DNA of 64,000 bases from an uncultured Candidatus Binatia bacterium. Lineage in GTDB: Bacteria; Desulfobacterota; Binatia; UBA9968; JAJDTQ01. The stretch is taken from NCBI GenBank assembly GCA_958295985.1, contig OY282432.1, positions 2,513,001 through 2,577,000 of the forward strand. Direction: 5' to 3'. Both the position numbers and the translations under genes were made by a program. Position 1 is the stretch's first letter, and each line of letters begins with the position of its first letter. This document shows positions 1,961 to 18,033 of the stretch, piece after piece. The notes beneath the pieces were generated by a model. It was not told the origin of the DNA and ran no database searches. It saw nothing but the letters and a program-made list of their open reading frames with translations.

Positions 1961-2041
1961 GGGGCTCGGACAGGCTCATGGGAGCCGTCTCCGGCGGGCT
2001 TCGGGTAGACTGCCGTGGCGTCGAAAATGGAGGTCCGCACC

Positions 2042-3157
2042 GTGAGCGTGGATGACGGCCGGCCGGCGGAGAATCGGGGTGACACCTTCGCGTCGGTCCT
2101 CCGCGGGTGCCGTACCCTGTTCTCTACTGCGCTGATGGACTCCGGGGGCTGGGAGCGTCTGCTGGCCCGGGCACGGTCGCTGCCCCGTTCCGTGATCGAT
2201 GCCCATTTCGGTTTCGAGTTCCATCTCGGGGAAGCGAGTGGGGACGCTGATCTCTTCGTCGTCGTGATTCCCGGATCGGACCTGTCGCGGCACTACATCC
2301 GCGAGGGCGCGCGCGCCGAGCGGGGGTCGGCGGCTGCGGCCCTCGGGGCCGGGCTTCGGGAACAGGCCGCGGACCCGGCATCGTACCTCGGCCGTTCCGT
2401 GGTCGGGACGGTGCTGGAGTACGACCTTTCCGGGCTTGCGCCCGGGGGGGAGGCGCCGGCCCCCGGGGTCTTCCTCGCGCCGCGGCACTCCGCCCCCGGG
2501 TCCCGTGAGGGGTTCGTCGAACATTCGGATCCCTCGGGCCTGCTCGCGGCCCTTGCCGCGATGGTGGGTTGGAGTGGCCACGAGGAGATCCTCCGAAAGG
2601 TGGAGCGCGTCTTCGCGGCTCTGCCGGAAACCGGCTACGTGTTCCAGGCGGGAGCCCTCCCGGGGCGTTCTCCGAGGGCGTTCCGGATCCTTCTCAAGGG
2701 CATCGCCAAGGAGGAGGTCCCCGACCTGCTGGAGCGGTTGGAATGGCCCGGCCCGACGGCCGGGGCCCTGGACGTACTCACCTGCATGGACGACCTCGTG
2801 GCCTACTTAGCCGTCAGCGTGGACGTGGCCGCGCAGGGGTTGGGTCCGCGGCTCGGCCTGGAACTGTACCGCGCCCGGAAATGGTTTGCGGTCGATCGTA
2901 CGGGGTGGAATCCCTTCATTGCCCGGATCGGGGACAAGGGCTGGTGCCTGCCTTCGAAAGCGGCCGGGCTGCGGAGTTGGCCGGGGACCGAACGGCTGCT
3001 CGACGGCGAAGAGCTGTACCTCGTCCGCCAGGGCATCAACCACGTCAAGGTCGTGGTCCAACGAGGCGTCCGAACGGTGGCGAAAGCGTACGCCGGCATG
3101 GACGTACGCCCGCAAGGGTCGAACCTGCGTCCGCGGTCCGCGGACGGGATGGGCTGA
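2042..3157 (+). CDS. Unrecognised RiPP-locus protein, candidate peptide-modifying enzyme (copy C)
   Basis: About 371 residues, soluble, with no signal peptide or membrane segment. I do not recognise the family. Features conserved with the paralogue at 7572-8714 are: 'GGW.RLLA' near the N-terminus; 'EF.LGE' and 'ADLFVVV.PGS.L.RH.IR.G' around residues 55-85; 'EYDL' around 130; 'GALPGR.PRA.R' around 210; 'VDVAA', 'LPRLGLELY' and 'GWCL..KA.GL' toward the C-terminus; and a terminal 'GINHVK', then 'AKAYAGM'. The alternating strand-like segments could be a beta-barrel fold such as ABBA prenyltransferases, but this is only a guess. The start is chosen as GTG 2042 because GGAGG lies 8 bases upstream and the same context precedes the next gene. 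In-frame starts at 2015 or 2027 have no ribosome site. It probably heads an operon with 3233 and 3562. Confidence 0.8.
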   Translation: MSVDDGRPAENRGDTFASVLRGCRTLFSTALMDSGGWERLLARARSLPRSVIDAHFGFEFHLGEASGDADLFVVVIPGSDLSRHYIREGARAERGSAAAALGAGLREQAADPASYLGRSVVGTVLEYDLSGLAPGGEAPAPGVFLAPRHSAPGSREGFVEHSDPSGLLAALAAMVGWSGHEEILRKVERVFAALPETGYVFQAGALPGRSPRAFRILLKGIAKEEVPDLLERLEWPGPTAGALDVLTCMDDLVAYLAVSVDVAAQGLGPRLGLELYRARKWFAVDRTGWNPFIARIGDKGWCLPSKAAGLRSWPGTERLLDGEELYLVRQGINHVKVVVQRGVRTVAKAYAGMDVRPQGSNLRPRSADGMG

Positions 3158-3232: not shown

Positions 3233-3565
3233 ATGAGCACGGACGGTCATCCACCCGCGGGAGACGCAGGCGGCGGCTCCGTCCCCGAAGCGTCCGCGCG
3301 TCCCTCGGGCGCCGATGCCGGGGGGATCGACCGCCGGGCGCCCCTGAGCGCGGCGGAGGTGCGGAGTCTGTTGCGGGACGGGACGCCCATCGTGGGTCTC
3401 GCCGACCGCCGGGCCTTCCAGCAGGAAGCGGAGTACCTTCGGGCCCTGTCCGCGGACAACTCCAGGCCCGTTCCGCGTATCAGCATCAAGATCGTCCCGG
3501 ATCCGGACTCCGCAGTGGAGGAAGGGGAACCCGCGGAGACATCGGGAAAGAAGGGTGAAGCATGA
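3233..3565 (+). CDS. Small hypothetical protein coupled to the JmjC oxygenase
   Basis: 110 residues with no recognised domain. The first 35 residues are Gly/Ala/Pro/Ser-rich and probably disordered. Residues about 37-90 could form a small fold (LSAAEVRSLLRDGTPIVGL, then 'RAFQQEAEYLRAL'), and the tail is acidic. ATG follows GGAGG, in the same sequence context as the start at 2042. Its TGA overlaps the ATG of the next gene by four bases (ATGA), so the two products are likely made together. A substrate-delivery or partner role for the oxygenase is possible. It has neither the NHLP leader nor a GG site, so it is not another precursor of that type. Confidence 0.7.
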   Translation: MSTDGHPPAGDAGGGSVPEASARPSGADAGGIDRRAPLSAAEVRSLLRDGTPIVGLADRRAFQQEAEYLRALSADNSRPVPRISIKIVPDPDSAVEEGEPAETSGKKGEA

Positions 3566-4926
3566 CCGACTCGGCCACGCCGGAAGGGCCCGGCGCGGAA
3601 GCGCACCCTGCGGAGACCGTCCCCCGCGGCGCCGCCCCGGTCGAGGAGCTGGTTGCCGGTGCGGAGCGGTACGGACCGGCGTCCGGGTTCGAGGGCCTGG
3701 TCCGGCCCCTCGCCACGCAGGAGTTCCTGGACACCCGCTACCGAGACAAACGTCCGGTGCTGTTCCGGGCAAAGGGTCCGCGTTTCGCGTCTCTTTGCAC
3801 CTGGGAGGCGCTCAACGCGCTGCTGTCCTCGGGTGCGTGGCGCAACCGGATGTCTCTCGTGCAGCAGGGCCGGTCGGTGGCCGAGCATTACTACACGACG
3901 CCGCAGTTCGGCCACGGATGGAGAGGGAGAAGAGGAGGTGCGAACGAACGCCACATCGACGACGGGCGGCTGGCGACCTTCCTCCGCAAGGGCGCCAGCA
4001 TGGTCATGTCGGGCATCAACGAGGTTCATCTCCCTCTCCGCCCCGTAACCGACGCAATCGAGGAGACCCTGGGCGGCTACACCGGGATCAACCTCTACGC
4101 CTCCTGGGTGGCGACCCCCGGCTTTGCCGTGCACTGGGACGACCACGACGTGTTCGTGCTGCAGGTCGCCGGCGCAAAGCGTTGGCAGATCTACGGCGAA
4201 ACGCGGCGCTTTCCGCTCAACCGGGATTCGGAACCGAACGTGGAGCCGCCTCGGGAGATGGTGTGGAGCGAGGTGATCCGGTCGGGTGACGTCCTCTACA
4301 TCCCGCGGGGGTGGTGGCACGATGCCCGCACCCAGGACGACGAAGGGAAGGATGGCTCGGGTAGCCTGCACCTCACCTGCAGCGTCCTCCCGGTGACCGG
4401 GCTCGACTTCATGGAGTGGCTCTCCGGCAGGCTCGCTCGCCACGAGACCTTTCGCCGCGACCTCCCCCACCCCACGGACGGGACCGGCGATGCCCACTAC
4501 GCGGCGCTCAGGGACCTGATCCTCGGGGAACTGCAGGGCGACGTCGGACGGAAGTTCCGCGGCTATATGCGCTCCACCTGGTCCGAGAGCCCCCGGATGA
4601 GCCTTGGCCCCTGCATCGATCCCTGGAAGTCTCCGGATTGGGAGCGTTACGAAATCCGGCTCCGGGGCGACCGGTGCGCGACCCTGGAGCGGAACGCCGG
4701 TGGGGAGGCGGTGCTGGAGGCCAACGGCTATCGCTGGACCTTCGACGGCCGCTGCGTGGAGTTGCTGGCTCCACTCCTGCGGGGCGGGAGCGTGCGCGTC
4801 GGGGCTTTCCGGGAAACGGTCGTCGAGGGAGCTTCGGCAGAGTTGGCCGATGAGTTCCTCAAGCTGCTGGTCATGCGGGGGGTCGCGTACGCCGTGCCGC
4901 CGGCCTCCGGGCCGGAGCATGGGTGA
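3562..4926 (+). CDS. JmjC/cupin-4 Fe(II)/2-oxoglutarate oxygenase (RoxA/YcfD-like)
   Basis: 454 residues. The JmjC core has the full ribosomal-oxygenase motif H-x-D-x-x-D-V-F-x-x-Q, here VHWDDHDVFVLQ with H191 and D193. The distal metal ligand H253 lies in 'YIPRGWWHDA'. About 180 C-terminal residues resemble the helical and winged-helix part of this family. Known relatives hydroxylate Arg or His side chains of ribosomal proteins. Here the gene sits inside a peptide-precursor array and is coupled to a small protein, so hydroxylation of the peptide cores is the likely role. That is inference, and the residue attacked is unknown. It is the last gene of the 2042-4926 run and is followed by a fresh promoter. 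Confidence 0.88.
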   Translation: MTDSATPEGPGAEAHPAETVPRGAAPVEELVAGAERYGPASGFEGLVRPLATQEFLDTRYRDKRPVLFRAKGPRFASLCTWEALNALLSSGAWRNRMSLVQQGRSVAEHYYTTPQFGHGWRGRRGGANERHIDDGRLATFLRKGASMVMSGINEVHLPLRPVTDAIEETLGGYTGINLYASWVATPGFAVHWDDHDVFVLQVAGAKRWQIYGETRRFPLNRDSEPNVEPPREMVWSEVIRSGDVLYIPRGWWHDARTQDDEGKDGSGSLHLTCSVLPVTGLDFMEWLSGRLARHETFRRDLPHPTDGTGDAHYAALRDLILGELQGDVGRKFRGYMRSTWSESPRMSLGPCIDPWKSPDWERYEIRLRGDRCATLERNAGGEAVLEANGYRWTFDGRCVELLAPLLRGGSVRVGAFRETVVEGASAELADEFLKLLVMRGVAYAVPPASGPEHG

Positions 4927-5908: not shown

Positions 5909-6008
5909 TCCTGGCGTCGACTCACGGTCACGAAGACCGGGGTCGATGCCAGGGATACCCGGCATGACCTGCTCCCTCGCGCAGGACCGGCCCGGTTCGA
6001 GGCGCTGA
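5909..6008 (+). pseudogene. Internally deleted copy of the unrecognised RiPP-locus protein (F type)
   Basis: The first bases ('gcatcctggcgtcga') match the start region of the gene at 7572 ('gcatcatgacgtcgg'), with the ATG changed to CTG. From 5921 to 6008 the sequence matches the last roughly 90 bases of that gene ('ctcacggtcacg', then 'gacctgctccctcgcgcagg'). Nearly the whole coding region between these ends is missing. This remnant shows that a further full copy once lay between precursors 5 and 6. Confidence 0.75.
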
Positions 6009-6047: not shown

Positions 6048-6338
6048 GTGGAAACAGCGAAGGAAATGCGTGCGAAGATCGTGGGCAAGGCGACTGAGGA
6101 CGCGGATTTTCGCGCCCGGCTGCTCAGTGATCCGAAGGGAACGATCGAGTCGGAGTTGGGCGTCACGATTCCTGCGTCCCTGTCGATCGAGGTTCACGAA
6201 GAGAGCGGCATGACCGCGCATCTGGTTCTTCCCCCGGACAGCAGGCTGAGCGAAAGCGATCTGCAGGCGGTCGCCGGCCAGGCGAGGATAAAACAGATAT
6301 GGGCCGGGCTCGATAGGCTCATTCGCAATTGGGGGTAA
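6048..6338 (+). CDS. NHLP-leader RiPP precursor 6, probably decaying or atypical
   Basis: 96 residues. The leader is conserved, but three features are abnormal. The start codon is GTG rather than ATG, the AGGAGG present before the sister genes is missing ('tgagacgaaacaaaccaGTG'), and the processing site reads 'VAGQ' instead of 'VAGG'. The core would be ARIKQIWAGLDRLIRNWG, which still carries two Trp and a near-terminal Asn-Trp. It lies directly after the deleted gene copy at 5909-6008, whose loss probably removed its translation signal. It may be poorly translated and uncleavable. Confidence 0.75.
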   Translation: METAKEMRAKIVGKATEDADFRARLLSDPKGTIESELGVTIPASLSIEVHEESGMTAHLVLPPDSRLSESDLQAVAGQARIKQIWAGLDRLIRNWG

Positions 6339-6822: not shown

Positions 6823-6855
6823 ATGACGTCGAACCCGTTTCTCGCAGTTTGGTGA
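6823..6855 (+). pseudogene. 5' stub of the F-type unrecognised protein
   Basis: ATGACGTCGAACCCGTTTCT and the next bases match the first ten codons of the gene at 7572 (MTS.PFLAV), then hit a TGA and run into a degraded promoter segment. This is a third scar of the same duplicated gene in the array. Confidence 0.6.
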
Positions 6856-7571: not shown

Positions 7572-8714
7572 ATGACGTCGGACCCGTTTCTCGCAGTTGA
7601 GATGACCGAGCCGGTCTCGCGGTGTGGTACATCAACGCCTGATGAGCGCCGCGCACCGGGGACGGAGCTCGCGGAGGTCTTCCGTCCACTGATACCGCAC
7701 GCTTTGCTCGACGGTCCCGGATGGGATCGGTTGCTGGCCTGTGCCGCGGAGTTGCCTGACGCCGGGTTGGCGACGCCCCTCGGTTGCGAGTTTCGGCTCG
7801 GAGAGGAAACGCCTGCCGCGGACCTGTTCGTGGTGGTCAGACCGGGGAGCCCGCTTGCGCGGCACTTCATCCGCAGGGGCGAAGCCGCGCCTCCGGGCTC
7901 GACGGCCGCGGCGCTGGCCCGGTACCTTGTCGAGATCGGGCAAGCCGGATCTGCATTGCACGGTTGCATCGCCGGGACCATGCTCGAGTACGACCTGGCC
8001 GAGACGCCGGCCGGCCGGCGGCCGGAGCCGGGCGTGTTTCTGAAGGTGCGGCTCGGGGAGGAGCCCGAGCCGCATGACCGCCCGCAGCCCTTGCCGGTCG
8101 CGGCGCTGGCGGACGCGGTCGGCTGGACCGATGATGGCGAGGTGCGGCAGTCGGTGGCGCGGGTGCTGGCGGCGTTGCCGCCGGGCGGCAGGGTCGCCCA
8201 CATCGGAGCGTTACCGGGCCGGGCGCCGCGGGCGGTGCGGCTGGTGGTCCAGGGGCTCGGGCACGACGAGATCGGCAGGGTGCTGGAGCGGTTGGGCCGG
8301 CGCGGGTCGATCGGCCCGGTGACGGAAGTCCTGACCGACCTCGGGGAGGTGTTGCCCCGGTTCCGGCTGGCAGTGGACGTGGCCGCCACGGGGCTGTTGC
8401 CCCGGCTCGGCCTGGAGCTGTATCACGCGGGATCGTGGAGCAACGAACCCGACGGTTGGCTGATCACGGGGCGGAGCGACTGGCGGCCGGTGGTGGAGCG
8501 GCTGGCGCTGCGTGGTTGGTGCCTGGCGGCGAAGGCGCAGGGGCTGCTTCAGTGGTGTGCGCTCGACAAGATGTACGACCGCCGGGGCGTGTTCCTCGTC
8601 TACAAGGGGATCAACCACGTCAAGCTCACGGTCACGGAGGCCGGGGTCGATGCCAAGGCATACGCGGGCATGACCTGCTCCCTCGCGCAGGACCAACCCG
8701 GTTCGGGGTGCTGA
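7572..8714 (+). CDS. Unrecognised RiPP-locus protein, candidate peptide-modifying enzyme (copy F)
   Basis: 380 residues, a clear but diverged paralogue of the protein at 2042-3157. It has the same order of blocks: 'GPGWDRLLA', 'CEFRLGE', 'ADLFVVVRPGSPLARHFIR', 'LEYDLAE', 'GALPGRAPRAVR', 'AVDVAATGLLPRLGLELY', 'GWCLAAKAQGL', 'YKGINHVKL', 'AKAYAGM'. It has about 25 extra N-terminal residues that are not conserved. I do not recognise the family. The invariant charged and aromatic positions (E-x-D in EYDL, K-A-Y near the end, N-H in GINHVK) are candidates for an active site. It lies among METAKEMQ precursors, whereas copies A and C lie beside the MSTKTM precursors, suggesting each copy serves a precursor subfamily. 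No clear ribosome site precedes ATG 7572. Confidence 0.8.
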   Translation: MTSDPFLAVEMTEPVSRCGTSTPDERRAPGTELAEVFRPLIPHALLDGPGWDRLLACAAELPDAGLATPLGCEFRLGEETPAADLFVVVRPGSPLARHFIRRGEAAPPGSTAAALARYLVEIGQAGSALHGCIAGTMLEYDLAETPAGRRPEPGVFLKVRLGEEPEPHDRPQPLPVAALADAVGWTDDGEVRQSVARVLAALPPGGRVAHIGALPGRAPRAVRLVVQGLGHDEIGRVLERLGRRGSIGPVTEVLTDLGEVLPRFRLAVDVAATGLLPRLGLELYHAGSWSNEPDGWLITGRSDWRPVVERLALRGWCLAAKAQGLLQWCALDKMYDRRGVFLVYKGINHVKLTVTEAGVDAKAYAGMTCSLAQDQPGSGC

Positions 8715-8900: not shown

Positions 8901-9173
8901 ATGGAAACGGCAAAGGAAATGCAGGCGAAGATCGTGGGCAAGGCGGCTGAGGACTCGGACTTCCGCGCCCGGCTGCTGAGCGATCCGAAGGGGGCGATAG
9001 AGCAGGAGTTGGGCGTCACCATTCCAGCGTCTCTGTCGATCGAGGTTCACGAAGAGAGCGGCGCGACCGCGCATCTGATTCTTCCTCCCGACAGCAAACT
9101 GAGCGAGGGCGAATTGCAGACGGTCGCCGGCGGTTTTGAGAGACATGAGGGGTTCTACAACATTAATTGGTAA
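8901..9173 (+). CDS. NHLP-leader RiPP precursor 10
   Basis: 90 residues, METAKEMQ leader, core FERHEGFYNINW after 'TVAGG', aromatic-rich with a terminal Asn-Trp. The ribosome site is AAGGAGGAGC. It opens the third promoter block, with precursors 11 and 12 following at short spacing. Confidence 0.9.
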   Translation: METAKEMQAKIVGKAAEDSDFRARLLSDPKGAIEQELGVTIPASLSIEVHEESGATAHLILPPDSKLSEGELQTVAGGFERHEGFYNINW

Positions 9174-9874: not shown

Positions 9875-10028
9875 TCTCGCTGAGTCGCTCAGCGGTCCTG
9901 CAGGCGCGCATCATGGAGTCGAACCGGTCGCCGCTGACGGTGCGTTGCGAGACGGTGTGCAGGCGATGGATCCCGGAGTCACGAGTTTGGGAAAATCATC
10001 AGTTTTACCTCCCTGAAAGGAGAGGAAC

Positions 10029-10358
10029 ATGAACGAGGAAGGGATGACCGCCGGTGAGATGCGCGATCGCTTGATCGAAAAGGCGACCGAGGACGCGGAT
10101 TTCCGCGCCCGGCTGCTCAGCGATCCGAAGGGAACGATCGGGCAGGAGTTGGGCGTCACCATTCCGGCGTCCCTGTCGATCGAGGTTCACGAAGAGAGCG
10201 GCACGACCGTGCATCTGGTTCTTCCTCCCGACAGCAAACTGAGCGAGGGCGAATTGCAGACGGTCGCCGGCGGCACTCGTATCAGCAGTGACGGTAAGCG
10301 TGTCGTTCAACACAATACGCCTGTTTGGGGGGCTTTGACTGAGGAAATGGCGCTGTAG
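10029..10358 (+). CDS. NHLP-leader RiPP precursor 13 (mosaic leader, longest core)
   Basis: 109 residues. The first 20 residues or so (EMRDRLIEKAT) match precursor 14. From 'EDADFRARLLSDPKGTI' to 'TVAGG' the sequence matches the METAKEMQ subfamily, especially precursors 6 and 10, so the gene looks like a recombinant. The core is 27 residues, begins TRISSDGKRVV and contains one internal Trp (TPVWGAL). It does not end in Trp. The ribosome site is GAAAGGAGAGG. The 5' flank 'atcatcagttttac' is shared only with precursor 14. Confidence 0.88.
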   Translation: MNEEGMTAGEMRDRLIEKATEDADFRARLLSDPKGTIGQELGVTIPASLSIEVHEESGTTVHLVLPPDSKLSEGELQTVAGGTRISSDGKRVVQHNTPVWGALTEEMAL

Positions 10359-10445
10359 CGGTCGGGTCGGGGGCGAGCTTCCAGCCGGCGAGTGTCATGG
10401 CTTGGGGGAGATCATCAGTTTTACTTTTCCTGAAAGGAGAGGAAC

Positions 10446-10721
10446 ATGGACGAGAAAAGGATAACCGCCGGTGAGATGCGCGATCGTTTGATCGAAAAGG
10501 CGACTGTGGACGATGTGTTCCGCGCCCGGTTGATGGCGGACCCCAAGGCCGCGATCGAGGCGGAAACAGGCGTGACCGTGCCCTCCGAGTTCACCATCGA
10601 GGTACACGAGGACACCGCGGATACCAGTCACCTGATCCTTCCGCCCTCCGCCGACCTCGGTGAAGCCGATCTGGAGCAGGTCGCCGGAGGCTTTTCCTGG
10701 GCTGACGTGGGATGGCGCTGA
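10446..10721 (+). CDS. NHLP-leader RiPP precursor 14
   Basis: 91 residues and the most divergent leader (ARLMADPKAAIEAETGV, then 'TVPSEFTIEVHED', then 'EQVAGG'). Its mid-section is closer to precursors 1 and 3 than to the METAKEMQ group. The nine-residue core FSWADVGWR has two Trp and ends in Arg. It is the last precursor, convergent with the export operon, whose last stop codon lies 72 bases away. No clear terminator hairpin is visible between them. Confidence 0.88.
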   Translation: MDEKRITAGEMRDRLIEKATVDDVFRARLMADPKAAIEAETGVTVPSEFTIEVHEDTADTSHLILPPSADLGEADLEQVAGGFSWADVGWR

Positions 10722-10792: not shown

Positions 10793-13738
10793 CTAGGTCA
10801 TTTGGCGGCGCACCAGGTTGCGGAAGGGGCCGTCGATCTCGATCAGTTCGTTGAACGTGCCGGTCTGGGCCACTTGGCCATCCTGCAGCACGTAGATGCG
10901 GTTGGCCATGCGGATGGTGGACAGGCGGTGGGCCGTCACGAACCGGGTGACGGCAAGTTCGGCCACGTTGTGCATCACTTGCGCCTGGCTCTTGTTGTCG
11001 AGCCAGTTGGTGGCCTCGTCGAGAAACAGGACGCTGGGGTCCCGGACCAGCGCCGCGGCCAGCATGATCCGCTGGATCTGCCCGCCCGAGAAAGCCGCCG
11101 ACTTGTCTCCGGTGACCGTGTACATCTGCATGGGCATGGCGGCGATGTCTTCGTCCACCGAAGCCATGCGGGCCGCCCGCCAGGCGTCCTCCTCGGTGAG
11201 CTCTCCGGACACTCCGATGATGTTTTCGAGCACGGTGCCGGGGTGTAGCGACACGTCCTGCACCACCATGCTGATCCTGCTGCGCACCGCTCGCTTGTTG
11301 AGGCGAGCGAGATCGCGCCCGTCGTAGTAAACGGCCCCCGACATCGGTGTCTCGAGTCCGAGGGCGAGCCGGAACAGGGTGCTCTTGCCCGCCCCGGATT
11401 CTCCGACGATGGCCACGAACTCGCCGGCGCGGGCGTGGATCGAGACGTCCTGCAGGACCAGGGGACCGTCCTCGGAATAACGGAAGCTCACGTGGTCCAC
11501 GTGGAGGTCGCCGCTGAGCTCCGGCGGCGGCTCGCCTTTGGCGCCCGTCTCCGGCTTCGACTCCAGGATCGGAGTCACCTGCTCGTACGCGGGCATGACC
11601 GCGGCGAGCGCGGAAAACGAAATGCCGAGCCTGGCCACCGCCGCATAGAACACCATGAACGCCGCGTAGATGGTGAGGAAGTCCCCGGTGGGAAGGGTCG
11701 CACGGCCGTCGTGCACCGCCGCCGTGAACACCGCTGCCGCGGCCAGCAGGGGCGCGGCAGCCAGGAAGGCGATCAGATGCTCGTCCAGCCTGCCGAGCCG
11801 CATCTCGGTCTGCTTCTGTTCCTGGTAGTTCTGCGCCCACAAGGCGAACCCGATGCCTTCGGATCCGGTGGACCGCAGCTTGCTGAAGCCGTTCAGCAGT
11901 TGCAGCAACCGGCCTGCAAGCTGTCGTGAGATGGTGAGCAGGCGCCGTTGGTGAGGTAGCTGGAGGATGCCGATGGCCGCGGTCACCCCCAGGGAGGACA
12001 GTCCCAGCCCCAGACCGAGCCAGCCGATCTCGGTGTTGTAGACGAACAACAGCACGAACGTCGGCAGGAGGAAGATCACCGACAGGAGAGCGTTGCCGAC
12101 CACGCCTGAGACCTGATCGCGCAGTCCCTGGAAGGCCATGGTGCGCATGGTGAGGTCACCGGATGAGAAGCGGCGAAAGAACCGCTGCGGCAGGCCGAGC
12201 AGCCGGTCCCAGAGCGCCGCGCCCACGCGGGCCGCGGCTACGGCCTCCAGCCGCATCAGGGCCGTTCCCTGGAGGACTTGCAGGAGCCCGGTGAGAATGG
12301 CCAGCAGGACCAGGGACAGCGAGAGCTCCAGGAGTTGCCAGCCGGACCCGCTCGGGATCACGCGGTTCACGAGGGCGCCGAGCAGGATGGGCGGCATCAG
12401 CATCATGAGGCCCACCAGCAGTCCGGCCAGGATGAAGCGCGCCAGGTCCTTGCCGAGCCCGCGGAACGCGAAGCGGAACAGGGCGCCCGAGCGGACCGTT
12501 TCCTCCTGCGGCAACGCGCGGTAGAAGAAGTACGCTTCGGAAGCGAGGTCCCGGGCCAAGTCCCCGTCCACCCGCTCCGAACGGCCCGTCTCCGGGTCGA
12601 TCATCCGGTAACGGCCCGACACGCCCGGAATCAGCGCCACCGGGTTCCCGGACTCGCGCCGGAACGCCAGCATCGCGCCGCTGTCGCCGCGCCACCAACG
12701 GTCGTCGGCAGCGAGCTTGACCTTGCGCGCGCGGACCCCGGACACGCGCTGGATCTCCGTCAGGTCGTGGGTCTCTTCCTCCATTCCCCTCCGGCGGGGT
12801 GGAGCGCGGAACCGAATGCCTTCGTGGCTGCCCACCAGATCCAGGGCGCTCAGCAGGCCCGATCCGTCGTCCCTCTTCTCCACCGGGGAACGGCGCGCCT
12901 TCAGGACGCCGATCAGGTTGTCGCGAGCGCGCTCCTCGCTCCGGCTCTGGCGTTGGACTTGGGCTCGCTGCAAGTTGGCCATGTCCACGAGTATCAGGCG
13001 CCGGTTGAGTTCCTCCACGGACAGCGCCAGTCGATGGAACTCGGCCAGAGCGGAGAACAGCAGGCCATCGGCTTCGAGCGCCGCGGACGTGGTGACGGTC
13101 AGTCGGGAGGGGTGGAACAGCCGTATCCAGCTTTTGACCGACACGGGGATGAAGCCCGGACCGCTGCCGGTGAGCTCGCCGGTGTCGAGGAAAGCCGCGT
13201 TCCCCACCGGTGTCGAGACCCAGAGTACGCCGTGCCGGGTGGACAGCACGTTTTCGGCCACGACCTCGTCGTCCTTGCCCGCGGTCAGGAAGCGCTCGGG
13301 GCGCGGGCGCGGCTCCACCTCCTGGGCGATTGCCGCGGCGACGTCGGTAATCCAGGTATCGACTTGCTCGGTCAGGGGTCCGGCAACCCCGGGGCCGGTC
13401 AAAGCGGTCCGGGGGACGCAGCGGAGCTCGGTGTCGGGGAGCCCCTTGGCGATGTACACCGACATGGAGATATCCTCGTCGTTGTCGACGCCGAAGATCC
13501 ACCTGCCGGCGCCGGCGCGCAGGAGTTGCTTGAAGTCCGATGCCTCCCCGTCCGCAGAACGCTGGACGGCGAATATGTCCATCGCGCCCCTGACCACGTA
13601 CCATACCGTCCCGGGATCGGACAGGAGGACGGGCCGGTTGCCTCCGCCGGTGAACGTCTCGCCCTGCGTGAGCGCGATTTCTTCGAGTCTGCCCAGTGCC
13701 GGCTTCTGCATGTCCCTCGTTCCGTGCTTCCCCTTCAA
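10793..13738 (-). CDS. NHLP-type peptide export ABC transporter, permease/ATPase (ABC2 type)
   Basis: About 980 residues. The N-terminal third is a non-peptidase regulatory region typical of NHLM-type ABC2 exporters (VWYVVRGAMDIFAV suggests a cyclic-nucleotide-binding-like beta fold). A six-helix ABC membrane domain lies at roughly 430-700 and a C-terminal nucleotide-binding domain has Walker A GESGAGKST, signature FSGGQ, Walker B LFLDEAT and switch His in VTAHRLS. There is no C39 peptidase. The listed start is TTG 13738, which overlaps the upstream gene's stop (TTGA) and has GGAG 5 bases before it. ATG 13711 (MQKPALG) is the main alternative. With the next two genes it forms the secretion operon for the precursors. 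Confidence 0.9.
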   Translation of the reverse strand: MKGKHGTRDMQKPALGRLEEIALTQGETFTGGGNRPVLLSDPGTVWYVVRGAMDIFAVQRSADGEASDFKQLLRAGAGRWIFGVDNDEDISMSVYIAKGLPDTELRCVPRTALTGPGVAGPLTEQVDTWITDVAAAIAQEVEPRPRPERFLTAGKDDEVVAENVLSTRHGVLWVSTPVGNAAFLDTGELTGSGPGFIPVSVKSWIRLFHPSRLTVTTSAALEADGLLFSALAEFHRLALSVEELNRRLILVDMANLQRAQVQRQSRSEERARDNLIGVLKARRSPVEKRDDGSGLLSALDLVGSHEGIRFRAPPRRRGMEEETHDLTEIQRVSGVRARKVKLAADDRWWRGDSGAMLAFRRESGNPVALIPGVSGRYRMIDPETGRSERVDGDLARDLASEAYFFYRALPQEETVRSGALFRFAFRGLGKDLARFILAGLLVGLMMLMPPILLGALVNRVIPSGSGWQLLELSLSLVLLAILTGLLQVLQGTALMRLEAVAAARVGAALWDRLLGLPQRFFRRFSSGDLTMRTMAFQGLRDQVSGVVGNALLSVIFLLPTFVLLFVYNTEIGWLGLGLGLSSLGVTAAIGILQLPHQRRLLTISRQLAGRLLQLLNGFSKLRSTGSEGIGFALWAQNYQEQKQTEMRLGRLDEHLIAFLAAAPLLAAAAVFTAAVHDGRATLPTGDFLTIYAAFMVFYAAVARLGISFSALAAVMPAYEQVTPILESKPETGAKGEPPPELSGDLHVDHVSFRYSEDGPLVLQDVSIHARAGEFVAIVGESGAGKSTLFRLALGLETPMSGAVYYDGRDLARLNKRAVRSRISMVVQDVSLHPGTVLENIIGVSGELTEEDAWRAARMASVDEDIAAMPMQMYTVTGDKSAAFSGGQIQRIMLAAALVRDPSVLFLDEATNWLDNKSQAQVMHNVAELAVTRFVTAHRLSTIRMANRIYVLQDGQVAQTGTFNELIEIDGPFRNLVRRQMT

Positions 13739-15981
13739 CTCGACTCCACGAGTTGGTAGTACAGTCCGTCGGTGTCCCGCATCAACTCCTCGTGGGCGCC
13801 GCGCTGCACCTCGCGCCCGTGGTCGAGGACCACGATCAGATCACAGTCGCGGATGGTGCTCAGCCGATGGGCCACGATGAGACAGGTGCATCCCCGGCGC
13901 CGCAGGGCGTCGTCGATCCGGACCTCGGTGATGGTGTCGAGCGAGCAGGTCGCCTCGTCCAGGATCAGCACCGACGGGTTGTTGACCAGCGCGCGGGCGA
14001 TCTCCAGCCGCTGCCGCTGGCCGCCGCTGAAGTTGCGTCCTCCCTCGTCCACCGGCGCGTCGTACCCCAGCGGCCGGGAGATGATCTCCGCGTGGATGGT
14101 CGCGTCCTGCGCGGCCGCCACCAGGGTCTGGTCCGGCACCTCCGGGATCCACATGGTCAGGTTCTCGCGCACCGTGTCTCCGAACAGGAAGATGTGCTGG
14201 TCCACGAGCGACATGGAACTGGTCAGCACCTCGCGCGGAATGGCGTTGCGTGGGTGTCCGTCGATCAGGACCTCCCCCGACCACGGTTGCTGGAGGCCGG
14301 CCACCAACGACGACAGCGTGGACTTGCCGGACCCGCTGGGGCCGACGATGGCCACGCGCTGGCCGGGCTCGATGGTCAGGCTGAAGTCCTTGAGCAGGGG
14401 TTCGCGGTTTTTCTGGTAGCCGAAGGTGACGTTGCGCAGTTCGATCCGGCCTTTCAGTCGCAGCCGCCCGGCCAGCGTCGAGACCCGTTCCTGGGAGGGG
14501 TCGGCCGCCGGCTCGAAGGCGCGGTCCTCGGATGCGTCGAACACGTCGTCGAGGCGCTGCAGGTCCGCCTCCAGCATCTGGAACATGTCGGCGAACTGGA
14601 TGAAACGTCCAATGGGCTGCAGGAAGTTCACCGCCGCCATGTAGAAAGCCGTCAGCATGCCCACCGTCAGGTCGCCCGCCATCACCCGCCAGCCGCCGAC
14701 ACCGAGCACCGCGGCGTTGCCCAGGATCAGGAACAGGATGGGCAGGGCCGCGTTGACGTGGCCGAGCTCGGCGAACCGTTGCCGGGCGACCAGCTCCCGC
14801 GCCTGGTACCCGGTCCAGCGGGAGAAGAAGTCGTCCTCCGCGGCGGATGCCTGCAAGGTGTCGATCTTGCCGGCCCCGAACATGCCGATCCCGTACAGCA
14901 TGCCCTGTTCGCGTCTGAGTCTGCGGTTCTCGTCCACCCGCACCCGGGCCAGGACGCGCATGACCACTGCGCTGAGCGCACCCAGTCCGACGACCACGGC
15001 GGCGAGCAGCGGGTCGTACGCCAGCATGAGTCCAAGGAACGCCATGCTGGTGACGATCTCGATGGAGATGCCGACGAAGTGCCGCGTGGCCACGTCCGAG
15101 ACCATGTCGAGAAGCTGTATCCGGGAGGTCAGGTCGCCGGACAGGCGGTGCGTGAAGAACCCCATGGGAAGCCGGAACAGCCGGGCCATGAAGCGCGTGC
15201 CGTGGTCGATGGCGAGGCGCACGGCGAGCAGTCTGAGGCAGCGTTCCCGGAGCCAGGTAAGGAGGTAGAGCAGACCCGCGGCGCCCACGAGGCTCCCGGT
15301 CAGCACCCCGCTCCAGGACGGTTCGCGCCCGGACAGCACGAAGTCCACGAACAGACCCACCAGGAACGGCATGGCAAGGGAAGGCAGGCTCAGCAGCACC
15401 CCGCAGCACATGGCGAACGCGAGCGGCTCCTTGACGTCGCGCAGCCACGGCAGGATCCGGTACAGGAGACCGGGGCGGATGCCGCCCGGACTGAACTCGG
15501 GCTTCGGCTGGAACGTCAGCGTCACGCCCGTGAACGCCTGGTCGAACTCTTCCGCGCTGACCGCTCGGTGGCCGTTGGCCGGGTCGTTGATCAGGAACTG
15601 GTCCCCGCGGAAGCCTTCGAGGACGACGAAGTGGTTGAACTCCCAGAAGATGATCATCGGCAACGGCATGCCGCGGAGTTGCTTCGGCTGCCTGCGCCAT
15701 CCTCGGGTCTCGAGACCGTACCGCTGCGCCGCGCGGAAGATGTCGGCCGCGGTGCACCCGTCCCGTCCCACCGAGCACGCTTCCCGCAACTCCTCGATGG
15801 ATACCCAGCGCCCGAAGTGCGCAAGCACGATGCTGAGGCACGCCGCCCCACACTCGGTCTCGGTGAGTTGCAGCATCAGAGGCGTGCGCGCCCGGCGCCG
15901 CGTCGGCGCAACGCGCCCTCGCTTCAGCGTCTGGTTGCGGGAGGCGTTTCCCCGCACGTGGTCGGAGACGGTGGCAGGCAT
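13735..15981 (-). CDS. NHLP-type bifunctional C39 peptidase/ABC exporter (ABC1 type)
   Basis: About 748 residues. An N-terminal C39 peptidase has catalytic Cys44 in TECGAACL, His in NHFVVLEG and Asp in INDPANG. This is followed by an ABC transmembrane domain and an ATPase with Walker A GPSGSGKST, signature FSGGQRQR, Walker B LILDEAT and VAHRLS. It is expected to cut precursors after the GG that ends each leader and to export the released core. The start is ATG 15981, whose A is shared with the TGA of the upstream HlyD gene (TGATG). An open frame extends further upstream but lies inside that gene. The stop overlaps the start of the second exporter. Confidence 0.93.
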   Translation of the reverse strand: MPATVSDHVRGNASRNQTLKRGRVAPTRRRARTPLMLQLTETECGAACLSIVLAHFGRWVSIEELREACSVGRDGCTAADIFRAAQRYGLETRGWRRQPKQLRGMPLPMIIFWEFNHFVVLEGFRGDQFLINDPANGHRAVSAEEFDQAFTGVTLTFQPKPEFSPGGIRPGLLYRILPWLRDVKEPLAFAMCCGVLLSLPSLAMPFLVGLFVDFVLSGREPSWSGVLTGSLVGAAGLLYLLTWLRERCLRLLAVRLAIDHGTRFMARLFRLPMGFFTHRLSGDLTSRIQLLDMVSDVATRHFVGISIEIVTSMAFLGLMLAYDPLLAAVVVGLGALSAVVMRVLARVRVDENRRLRREQGMLYGIGMFGAGKIDTLQASAAEDDFFSRWTGYQARELVARQRFAELGHVNAALPILFLILGNAAVLGVGGWRVMAGDLTVGMLTAFYMAAVNFLQPIGRFIQFADMFQMLEADLQRLDDVFDASEDRAFEPAADPSQERVSTLAGRLRLKGRIELRNVTFGYQKNREPLLKDFSLTIEPGQRVAIVGPSGSGKSTLSSLVAGLQQPWSGEVLIDGHPRNAIPREVLTSSMSLVDQHIFLFGDTVRENLTMWIPEVPDQTLVAAAQDATIHAEIISRPLGYDAPVDEGGRNFSGGQRQRLEIARALVNNPSVLILDEATCSLDTITEVRIDDALRRRGCTCLIVAHRLSTIRDCDLIVVLDHGREVQRGAHEELMRDTDGLYYQLVESS

Positions 15982-16883
15982 CAGATGTCGGTGTTGGCCA
16001 GCAGCAGGGCCGCAGGGGACTGGCTCCCCAACACGATCCGCGCGCGTCCGCCGGCGCCGTCCGCAAGCGGCAGGCGCGACGGACCGTTCAGGACCAGCCG
16101 CAGCAGGTGTGCGGGCGTGGGCGTCGCCAGACCCAGGTCGGCAAGCCATTGCGGGGTGGCCACGGTCCCGGGGGATACCTCCAGGACACGGGCTTCCAAC
16201 CTGCTCGCGCCCGGTTGCTCGGGCAGCGTCACCCACACCTCCGCATCCATGCCCGCTTCGAGCTTCTCGGCGTCCTGTGCCGGTATGAAGGCCAGCGCCT
16301 GCCAATCATCCTCGGAACTGCCCAGGACCTGAGCCACGGTCTCGCCGGTGCGTACCGGCTGGCCCGGCACCAGACGGTGCGCCACGAGCCGGCCCCCATG
16401 CTGAGCCACGATCGATTCCGCGGCCCGAAACTCGATGGCTTCGATCTCGTTCCGCGCCGCGGTGAGCAACGCCGTCCGGAGTTCGGCAGCCGCGTCGCCC
16501 CGCATCCCGTCCTGGACGGCGTTCAGGATCCTCCCTGCGATCCGGGCCTGGCGCTCCGTTTCCGGGAGACGGACCCGGGCGAGGGTCTGTCCCGCCTCGA
16601 CGGTGTCTCCGACTTCGGCCAGGACCTCGATGACGTTGCCGGACACGGGGGATAGCACTGCGTGGCGTTCGCCCGGCTGAACCAGCACAGCCTTGACCGT
16701 ATGGCTGCGCTCCACGCTCCCGAAGATCCCCCAGGCGAGCAGCAGGAGAAGCGCCACGCCGAGCCCCGCCAGCACCATCCACTCGTGGGCGGCCGTGACC
16801 TGGAGCCGTTCGTCGAGGGGCTCTCCGCGCGCTTGGCGGGCGACGGCTTCCTCCCGGAAAATTTTGCTGTAGAACAAGGACAA
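15981..16883 (-). CDS. NHLP-system HlyD-type secretion adaptor
   Basis: About 300 residues: a short cytoplasmic N-terminus, one membrane span (VLAGLGVALLLLLAWGIFG), then a periplasmic biotinyl-lipoyl-like hairpin region and a beta-barrel, as in membrane-fusion proteins of peptide exporters. Translation probably starts at TTG 16883 (giving LSLFYSK), because GGGAGG lies 8 bases upstream. The longer reading to 16955 adds a basic, proline-rich stretch foreign to the family. It is the first gene of the exporter operon, with its stop codon overlapping the next start. It is divergent from the toroid-protein gene at 17020, so the shared 137-base gap should hold both promoters. Confidence 0.85.
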   Translation of the reverse strand: MSLFYSKIFREEAVARQARGEPLDERLQVTAAHEWMVLAGLGVALLLLLAWGIFGSVERSHTVKAVLVQPGERHAVLSPVSGNVIEVLAEVGDTVEAGQTLARVRLPETERQARIAGRILNAVQDGMRGDAAAELRTALLTAARNEIEAIEFRAAESIVAQHGGRLVAHRLVPGQPVRTGETVAQVLGSSEDDWQALAFIPAQDAEKLEAGMDAEVWVTLPEQPGASRLEARVLEVSPGTVATPQWLADLGLATPTPAHLLRLVLNGPSRLPLADGAGGRARIVLGSQSPAALLLANTDI

Positions 16884-17019: not shown

Positions 17020-18033
17020 GTGCAACGTTCACCTTACAGCGACGGCAGCGACGGCGCTATCCCGGCGCGGCTCCGAGAGGCGGTGTGCGGCGCCGTGGAC
17101 CGGGGGCTCGACTTTCTCCAGGCCTCCATCCGCGGCGACGGGGCATGGACCTCGCGGCTCTACCCGAGCCTCGATCTCAAGGGCTCGCCGAAAGAGGAGC
17201 AACCCCCCTTCGTGGCCGCTCTCGGCGCGCTCACCCTGGAGGTCTGCGACGACCCCAGGTCCCGAGCGGTCCGGGATCGGTCCGGAGAGTTCATCGTCCG
17301 GTCCATGAGCCATCCGGGCACGTGGCGCTACTGGCCGAACCTCCCGCGCGACCTCGACAGTCTCAGCATCTGTTCCCTGGCGATTCGGTGGCACCCCTGG
17401 GTGCTGTCTGCCCGGAACCTCGGACTCCTGCCCACCGCGCAAGACGATATGGGAAGGTTCAGGACCTGGCTCGCCCCGCCCAACGAAGGCAACGTCGCGG
17501 ACAGCGTGGTGAACGCCAACGTCGTCGGCTACCTTGCCGCGCAGGGCCGGAACGAGTTGGGCGCGCAGGCCGCGGCGTGGCTCGCCGGTCTGATCACGGA
17601 AGGGAACGCAGAGGGGACGTCCCATTATTACCCCGACGCCATGGACCTCTACGACGCCGTGGCCCGCGCCCGGCAGCGGGGCGTGCCCGCGTTTCAGGAC
17701 ATGGACTCTCGGCTCGGGGACCGGGTCCGCTCCCGACGCGGCGCCGACGGCGGGTACGGCGACACGCTGCGCACCGCACGCGCCCTTTCCGCACTGCACG
17801 TCCTGGAAGCCCCGCCGGAGGGTGAAGCGCTGTGGGCCACGCTGGAGCGAATCCTGAGCCGGCAACGCTCCGACGGAAGCTGGCCGGAGCACTGCTACTG
17901 GCAGGGACCCCTGCCGCCGAGACCGCCCACCGTTGGATTCGGATGCGCAATGCTCGACACCGCTTCGTGCGTCGAGGCCCTCGTCCGATCGGGCGCCGGC
18001 CCGGACGGCATGCGGTTCCCTTCGGACCGCTGA
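17020..18033 (+). CDS. Prenyltransferase/squalene-cyclase-like toroid protein
   Basis: 337 residues with the repeats of an alpha-alpha toroid: 'GLDFLQASIRGDGAWTS', 'GTWRYW', 'RRGADGGYGDTLRTARALSAL' and the QW-type motif 'RQRSDGSWPE'. These are seen in squalene-hopene cyclases, class II diterpene cyclases and protein prenyltransferase beta subunits. It is about half the length of a full squalene-hopene cyclase and shows no obvious DxDD catalytic motif, so it may be a single-domain relative rather than a terpene cyclase. Divergent from and adjacent to the exporter operon, it may act on the exported peptides. That is inference. GTG start without a clear ribosome site. Confidence 0.75.
   Translation: MQRSPYSDGSDGAIPARLREAVCGAVDRGLDFLQASIRGDGAWTSRLYPSLDLKGSPKEEQPPFVAALGALTLEVCDDPRSRAVRDRSGEFIVRSMSHPGTWRYWPNLPRDLDSLSICSLAIRWHPWVLSARNLGLLPTAQDDMGRFRTWLAPPNEGNVADSVVNANVVGYLAAQGRNELGAQAAAWLAGLITEGNAEGTSHYYPDAMDLYDAVARARQRGVPAFQDMDSRLGDRVRSRRGADGGYGDTLRTARALSALHVLEAPPEGEALWATLERILSRQRSDGSWPEHCYWQGPLPPRPPTVGFGCAMLDTASCVEALVRSGAGPDGMRFPSDR

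Follow-up and report, generated by a model that had tools for sequence, protein, structure and literature searches.

A precursor array with two leader classes

The window (the whole stretch of DNA that was analysed, 64,000 nucleotides, corresponding to positions 2513001-2577000 of a 4.09-Mb contig) starts within an array of genes encoding NHLP precursors, i.e., RiPP precursors with a nitrile-hydratase-like leader. The array comprises 18 such genes, 14 inside the window and 4 just upstream of it, and one distant copy was found ∼0.8 Mb off. A first-pass annotation of this DNA had spoken of 14 genes, which is correct for the window but not for the array. In a genome search, the distant copy and every one of the 18 array genes passed the TIGR03793 cutoff (50.9 bits), as did four precursors that were scanned singly. 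Gene 13 (p13; positions 10029-10358, forward strand) starts with ATG, codes for 109 amino acids, and scored 73.6 bits (69.3 bits for its neighbor, p14). Its leader/core boundary is a GG motif at 10269-10274, and NHLM transporter genes matching TIGR03796 and TIGR03797 above cutoff are located nearby (Table 1). The distant METPNEMR precursor (L045:4812-5093, equivalent to G000:C1:1712812-1713093) lies next to a matB-like fragment that contains an internal stop and is probably a relic unit.

Table 1. Features of the array region, in window coordinates
Feature	Position	Strand	Remarks
matA, maturase paralogue usually beside class I leaders	2015..3157	+	43% identical to matB
JmjC_2 oxygenase-like protein	3562..4926	+	PF08007, E 5e-25; HWD and PRGWWH motifs
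p6, class II precursor	6048..6338	+	GTG start; GQ replacing GG; matB-like remnant 5921-6008 upstream
matB, maturase beside class II leaders	7572..8714	+	ABBA/DMATS prenyltransferase fold in model
p10, class II precursor nearest to the p13 leader end	8901..9173	+	by base identity
5' flank and ribosome-binding site of p13	9978..10028	+	common to p14 (10394-10445)
p13 front, class I leader helix 1, p14-like	10029..10085	+	52/57 coding bases identical to p14
First breakpoint	10079..10088	+	coding bases 51-60, residues 17-20; MaxChi and descent tests, codon listing
p13 middle, class II leader, METPxEMR-like	10086..10178	+	91/93 to L061_7995; right limit approximate
p13 leader end to GG, p10-like	10179..10274	+	92/96 to p10, next 87/96; left limit approximate
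p13 core	10275..10355	+	27 residues, one Trp; no relative among cores examined
p14, class I precursor, relative of the front donor	10446..10721	+	relatives L118_4216 and L120_1809 in Spirochaetia MAG
NHLM ABC transporter 2	10793..13738	-	TIGR03797, 748 bits (cutoff 709)
NHLM ABC transporter 1 with peptidase	13735..16305	-	TIGR03796, 892 bits (cutoff 853)
Squalene-hopene-cyclase-like protein, weak match	17020..18033	+	PF13243, E 0.0011, below cutoff

Searching genomes with p13 returned 8 loci in four MAG records, three named "uncultured Gammaproteobacteria" and one "Spirochaetia", with 13 to 24 NHLP matches in each genome, weak ones counted. From this genome, those MAGs, and congeners, 92 precursor-like records were collected. 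The 80 from this genome and the four MAGs (G039 to G042) were used; 12 were left out (10 from the same-genus loci L048 to L055, one weak match, and one cut by the locus end), and three more frames without a start codon stand outside the precursor count. The leaders fall into class I, to which p14 belongs, and class II (METxxEM). The two p14 relatives in the Spirochaetia MAG combine the same kinds of front and back, and the p14 type is therefore found outside this genome too.

Each maturase gene was paired with the nearest precursor upstream on the same strand. By this rule, a class II leader precedes all 6 matB-like genes, and a class I leader precedes 10 of the 11 matA-like genes, the exception being u4 of this genome (Fisher P = 0.0006, to be read with caution since the genomes are related). 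Each leader class thus usually neighbors its own maturase paralogue.

p13 carries a class I front on a class II leader

Upstream of the start codon, 43 of 51 aligned bases are identical between p13 and p14 (8 mismatches and one gap). This alignment reached a local score of 32.5, compared to a maximum of 20 in 1000 shuffles and 16 for the next best precursor flank, and among the records examined the match was limited to this genome, bar 12 bases around the ribosome-binding site. The similarity continues into the gene: over coding bases 13-57 (39 aligned), p14 matches p13 at 38 positions, other class I genes of this genome at 25 to 28, and METAKEMQ-type genes at 20 to 21. Over coding bases 58-246, identity to p13 is 119/189 for p14 and 161 to 174/189 for the METAKEMQ-type genes of this genome, p2 and p10 ranking at the top with 174.

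With each of 9 second parents, the observed triplet MaxChi value exceeded those of all 2000 permutations, and the maximum descent value those of all 20000. The best MaxChi break was placed inside bases 51-62 for 8 of the 9 second parents and at 67/68 with p10; codon-by-codon comparison of sites narrowed it to coding bases 51-60. The stretch shared at this junction measures 10 bases between p14 and p6, 8 with METPxEMR genes, and 6 to 7 with p2, p10, and p12.

Trees built on 36 of the 80 precursors disagreed between the two parts of the gene. The front tree united p13 with p14 (UFBoot 91 without and 98 with the flank), and in the back tree forcing them together cost 92 log units (AU 2e-50). With fixed topologies, moving p13 onto class II leaves cost 38 to 39 log units at the front (45 coding bases; AU about 1e-7) and 82 to 83 with the flank included, and moving it onto p14 cost 133 log units at the back; these tests are liberal because the trees came from the same data and p13 was attached to single leaves. 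A loose constraint on the front, which does no more than separate p13 plus class II from p14 plus class I, was not rejected on the 45 coding bases (AU 0.43), and with the flank only at 0.03. The identity switch, the permutation tests, and the different trees confirm that p13 is a real intragenic recombinant of two leader subfamilies with a located breakpoint. The first-pass annotation had proposed just this, with the 5' flank and roughly the first 60 bases following p14; the breakpoint tests that it suggested were significant for every second parent, and the single tree for both halves that it named as contrary evidence was not obtained. Since each leader class usually neighbors a maturase of its own, p13 therefore joins classes linked to two different enzymes.

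Among the 80 precursors, p13 is the only clear between-class hybrid. A class I front on a class II back was found in this gene alone, and 56 of the 57 class II backs in the five genomes carry a class II front. Three further genes were near ties (front 0.62 versus 0.64) and are not counted as hybrids.

Two explanations would do without recombination in the cell. One is a misjoining of two repeat units during assembly, or a binning error; the array is repetitive, and the estimated contamination of the genome is 6.58%. Yet neither half of p13 is identical to any other unit examined: p14 differs from it at 5/57 bases of the coding front and 8/51 of the flank, and no class II gene examined comes closer than 14/189 differences, so the join is not a fresh assembly join. 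In addition, p13 has a core of its own. We therefore consider an artefact very improbable. The other explanation is convergence of the p13 and p14 fronts under selection alone, for example because one enzyme reads both. This is scarcely credible: although the helix 1 codons do look constrained (see below), the match spans 51 noncoding bases and silent positions, and is so not a case of protein convergence, and the other class I leaders of this genome reach just the 25 to 28 matches given above.

The breakpoint coincides with the end of a leader helix

The structural model of p13 has a mean pLDDT of 56, rising to about 76 to 82 over residues 11-40, with helices at residues 8-21, 23-31, and 33-41. 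Residues 17-20, at which the junction falls, make up the final turn of helix 1. According to the available portions of two reports (PMC10858898, PMC12455567), enzymes are contacted separately by the folded part of NHLP leaders and by their flexible end. With the junction at the end of helix 1, it is thus one helix of the folded part that was swapped, and the class II flexible end with its GG that was kept.

Differences between p13 and p14 are unevenly spread: 8/51 in the flank, 4/18 over the first six codons, and 1/39, which is synonymous, over codons 7-19 (codons 7-19 versus flank change, P = 0.011 by a binomial and 0.039 by Fisher's test). A single silent change in the helix codons against eight in the flank is modest evidence, and therefore suggests, that helix 1 of p13 is under some selection and in use. 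Its core had no relative above shuffled level among the cores examined, 45 of 300 shuffles scoring as well.

The class II part of p13

By base identity, the class II part of p13 is again composite: its middle resembles METPxEMR leaders and its end p10. For bases 58-150, the closest sequences are METPxEMR leaders from other MAGs (L061_7995; Table 1), the best match in this genome being p2 (87/93), and this stretch shows states (IGQELG) that are seen in other MAGs and not in its own array. MaxChi supported a second break with P values from <0.0002 to 0.028 for 6 of the 7 first parents named and 0.052 for p2, in a test with only 14 to 27 sites and with parents chosen after inspection. The break was placed at bases 113-154 for 6 of the 7 first parents and at 190-198 for p6. 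The back tree set p13 within class II, among METPxEMR genes of other MAGs, the inner group having a UFBoot of only 60. The initial assignment of the rest of the leader, down to the GG, to the METAKEMQ group is consequently right as to class, but the nearest relative of the middle part lies outside this genome.

The foreign states in the middle bear on a different polarity, in which the p13 arrangement is ancestral and the METxxEM genes exchanged their front instead. Besides these states, the loose placement of p13 at the base of class II, which was not rejected on the front coding bases, speaks for such a history. Against it stand the position of p13 inside class II in the back tree, the proximity of p10 to the last 96 leader bases, the occurrence of the class II front on all class II backs but one in five genomes, and the restriction of the p13/p14 flank match to this genome among the records examined, apart from the 12 bases. 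An ancestral p13 is hence improbable, and we continue with p13 as the derived hybrid.

Signs of recombination across the array

Leaving p13 aside, the class II leaders of this genome (those of 11 array genes plus the distant copy) gave PHI-type P values of 0.27, 0.0005, and 0.003 at windows of 30, 60, and 100 bases, respectively; across the class II genes of the five genomes (56 less gapped rows), P was 0.61. In 7 of 9 class II genes here, the leader resembles those of paralogues in the same genome carrying different cores more than those of genes that share its core in other genomes, compared to only 9 of 36 in the other four genomes. Leaders thus appear, as judged from these comparisons, to have been reshuffled and homogenized within this array, and less clearly so in the others.

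Transfer of cores between classes was not seen: all 15 multimember core families (defined by single linkage at a threshold chosen by the analyst) lie within one leader class, a purity matched by none of 5000 label shuffles. Several cores are identical across genomes with leaders that are less alike, e.g., RGSGNDEAITFWDDF in four genomes and AVMGDIGRIWRVQDW in three, including the Spirochaetia MAG. The cores of p1, p5, p7, p9, p10, and p11 recur letter for letter in at least one other MAG (L056 to L127), and that of p9 does so in the Spirochaetia MAG as well. We considered and rejected recent between-genome copying of entire cores, as the cores hold silent differences too, in some pairs fewer than the leaders. 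Among codons for the same residue, 11/14 in the core and 27/44 in the leader are identical between p1 and L056_5812, and 11/16 and 39/48, respectively, between p11 and L060_6820. That silent codons differ in both core and leader points to selection on the core rather than fresh copying.

Two short segments located between precursor genes resemble matB: 5921-6008 matches its last 90 bases (89%) and 6823-6849 its first 27 (96%). Both are probably scars of deleted maturase copies.

How the join in p13 came about, as distinct from its hybrid status, is a separate matter. We give somewhat less than an even chance to the view that, in place of gene conversion, a p14-like gene was duplicated and a crossover or short-homology deletion followed. 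Starting at the junction, 16 of 20 bases are shared by p14 and p6, with no mismatch in the first 10; p13 adjoins p14; and the apparent maturase scars indicate that deletions may have occurred in this array. On the other hand, the p14-like tract is bounded on both sides, at about 108 bases, as in conversion, and within the left flank, positions 9886-9928 match intergenic DNA that follows other class II genes. The idea of gene conversion inside coding regions, put forward in the first-pass annotation, is therefore borne out for recombination there, the PHI signal at 60 and 100 bases being present without p13, but conversion and crossover are indistinguishable. Of the two consequences that it had drawn, movement of cores between leaders is supported within a class in this genome, less so in the other four, and movement between maturases is not upheld, given that every multimember core family keeps one leader class and the p13 core is without a relative.

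Maturases and other genes of the cluster

Profile searches did not identify the maturases: matA and matB had no Pfam match at 0.001, matB had no NCBIfam match at E values up to 1 (two unrelated weak ones occurred among 24 family members), and the maturase profile gave 3 matches among sequences of solved structures, the best with an E value of 0.085 and none credible. A structural model of matB, computed from a 24-row alignment (mean pLDDT 80), showed an ABBA barrel fold. The best Foldseek match had an E value of 5e-6 (1zb6), with moderate TM-scores of about 0.34 to 0.56 for the matches listed, and VIA-align gave Z-scores of up to 16.2 (9iia_A, 299 aligned residues, rmsd 4.6). All 50 matches listed by Foldseek and all 50 listed by VIA-align are prenyltransferases, many of them acting on Trp or indole. 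The model thereby assigns matB to the ABBA/DMATS aromatic prenyltransferase fold. Trp is present in all 80 cores (57 of 57 distinct ones) and is the final residue in 52 of 57 from class II; Cys occurs in none of the 80. From fold and cores, we infer that the linked maturases would be Trp prenyltransferases.

In the genomes sampled from the phylum, the maturase profile was present in 2 of 297, this genome included. Two further proteins accompany the cluster. The JmjC_2 protein, whose family we take to be the former Cupin_4, has relatives of 70 to 74% identity in all four sister MAGs (one with a stop mark in the match) and in none of the 3 congeners tested. The cyclase-like protein has relatives of 76 to 77% identity in all four sister MAGs and a 41% match in 1 of 3 congeners. 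In one congener, a cyclase-like relative (L055:3737-5038; 39% identical) is fused to an N-terminal NHLP domain. In congeners (L052 to L055), precursor cores are of the LCCCW or LCCWW type, resembling the LCCCW core of SrpE from sponge srp clusters described in the accessible part of PMC10858898.

Probable horizontal spread of the cluster

Between this genome and the four MAGs, matB is 77 to 85% identical. For comparison of the hosts, 16S was found in only 2 of 11 genomes, and rpoB was used instead; G001, G003, and G036, which gave short matches, were left out. Relative to this genome, rpoB identity was 42% in the Spirochaetia MAG (1236 positions), 58% (1370 positions), and about 63% (946 to 950 positions, partial). 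One congener has an rpoB that is 96% identical, yet of 8 congeners 6 hold only maturase relatives of 31 to 44% identity and 2 hold none. Cluster enzymes that are 70 to 85% identical in hosts with only 42 to 63% identical rpoB suggest horizontal spread, which would be the simplest reading of these data.

DISCUSSION

We conclude that p13 is, with high probability, a working RiPP precursor that arose by intragenic recombination between two leader classes of one array. According to this explanation, a p14-like class I tract of about 108 bases, consisting of the 51-base flank with the ribosome-binding site and most helix 1 codons, was joined to a class II leader body inside a short stretch common to both classes, at the end of helix 1. 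The hybrid would be expressed from the class I start region, and the class II part beside the GG would still direct processing. If the maturases are Trp prenyltransferases, p13 would give rise to a peptide with prenylated Trp that leaves the cell through the NHLM transporter.

Several features are shared with known NHLP/proteusin systems (TIGR03793; MprE7, SrpE, and OspA), in particular the leader family, the GG boundary, and a helix bundle followed by a flexible end, as far as these are described in the parts of PMC10858898 at hand. As in proteusin systems, an NHLM transporter adjoins the array, and p13 matches the structure of an MprE7 chimera (8tb1, E 1.4e-10). The present array differs in having two leader classes, each usually adjacent to its own maturase paralogue, and a hybrid. 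As its cores contain Trp and no Cys, SrpE-type Cys-to-azoline chemistry cannot act on them. Hubrich et al. (2024, Chem) reportedly deal, going by the title, with RiPPs bearing polycyclic isoprenoid moieties. To judge from that title only, isoprenoid rings on ribosomal peptides are the common element; here, a prenyltransferase fold and a cyclase-like protein occur in one conserved cluster.

Clusters combining NHLP and cupin-4 genes occur in sponge metagenomes, and the combination of an NHLP leader with a cupin-4 enzyme is what they share with this cluster, in the accessible text of PMC9426513, where neither precursor sequences nor recombination are described. MppC is a tested leader-dependent Trp geranyltransferase, the precursor of which, MppE, is of the Nif11-type lanthipeptide kind (PMC12715784, in part). 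It is a prenyltransferase that depends on a long leader and acts on a core Trp, as the maturases here may, but the leader here is of the NHLP type, and the likeness is one of description in the available part of that report. Prochlorosin arrays also consist of tandem long-leader precursors, for which recombination has been proposed as a source of diversity (PMC10783134, excerpted text). In those arrays, as that excerpt has it, the variation lies in the cores and the leaders are conserved; in the present one, several cores recur unchanged between genomes with differing leaders, and one leader is cut in its folded part. Among the literature matches listed for RiPP-precursor recombination and leader-linked prenyltransferases, with subscription journals mostly outside their scope, no natural leader hybrid of this kind was described in a title or the opening of an abstract.

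A wider reading is that long RiPP leaders are swapped as structural modules, and that p13, by combining the promoter region and helix 1 of one prenyltransferase's class with the remainder of its paralogue's, was re-addressed to a different enzyme or to both. We put this forward tentatively and consider it rather unlikely; in such a case, enzyme recognition of p13 would be altered. If re-addressing is true, p13 would be a natural counterpart of engineered chimeric leaders, in which leader parts are fused so that peptides are directed to several enzymes; in p13, the cut in the folded leader is natural and falls where helix 1 ends. The cluster is of interest in its own right, with letter-identical Trp cores across genomes beside prenyltransferase-like enzymes that match no curated family. 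The hybrid p13 is also well suited to testing which segment of a long leader is responsible for addressing which enzyme.
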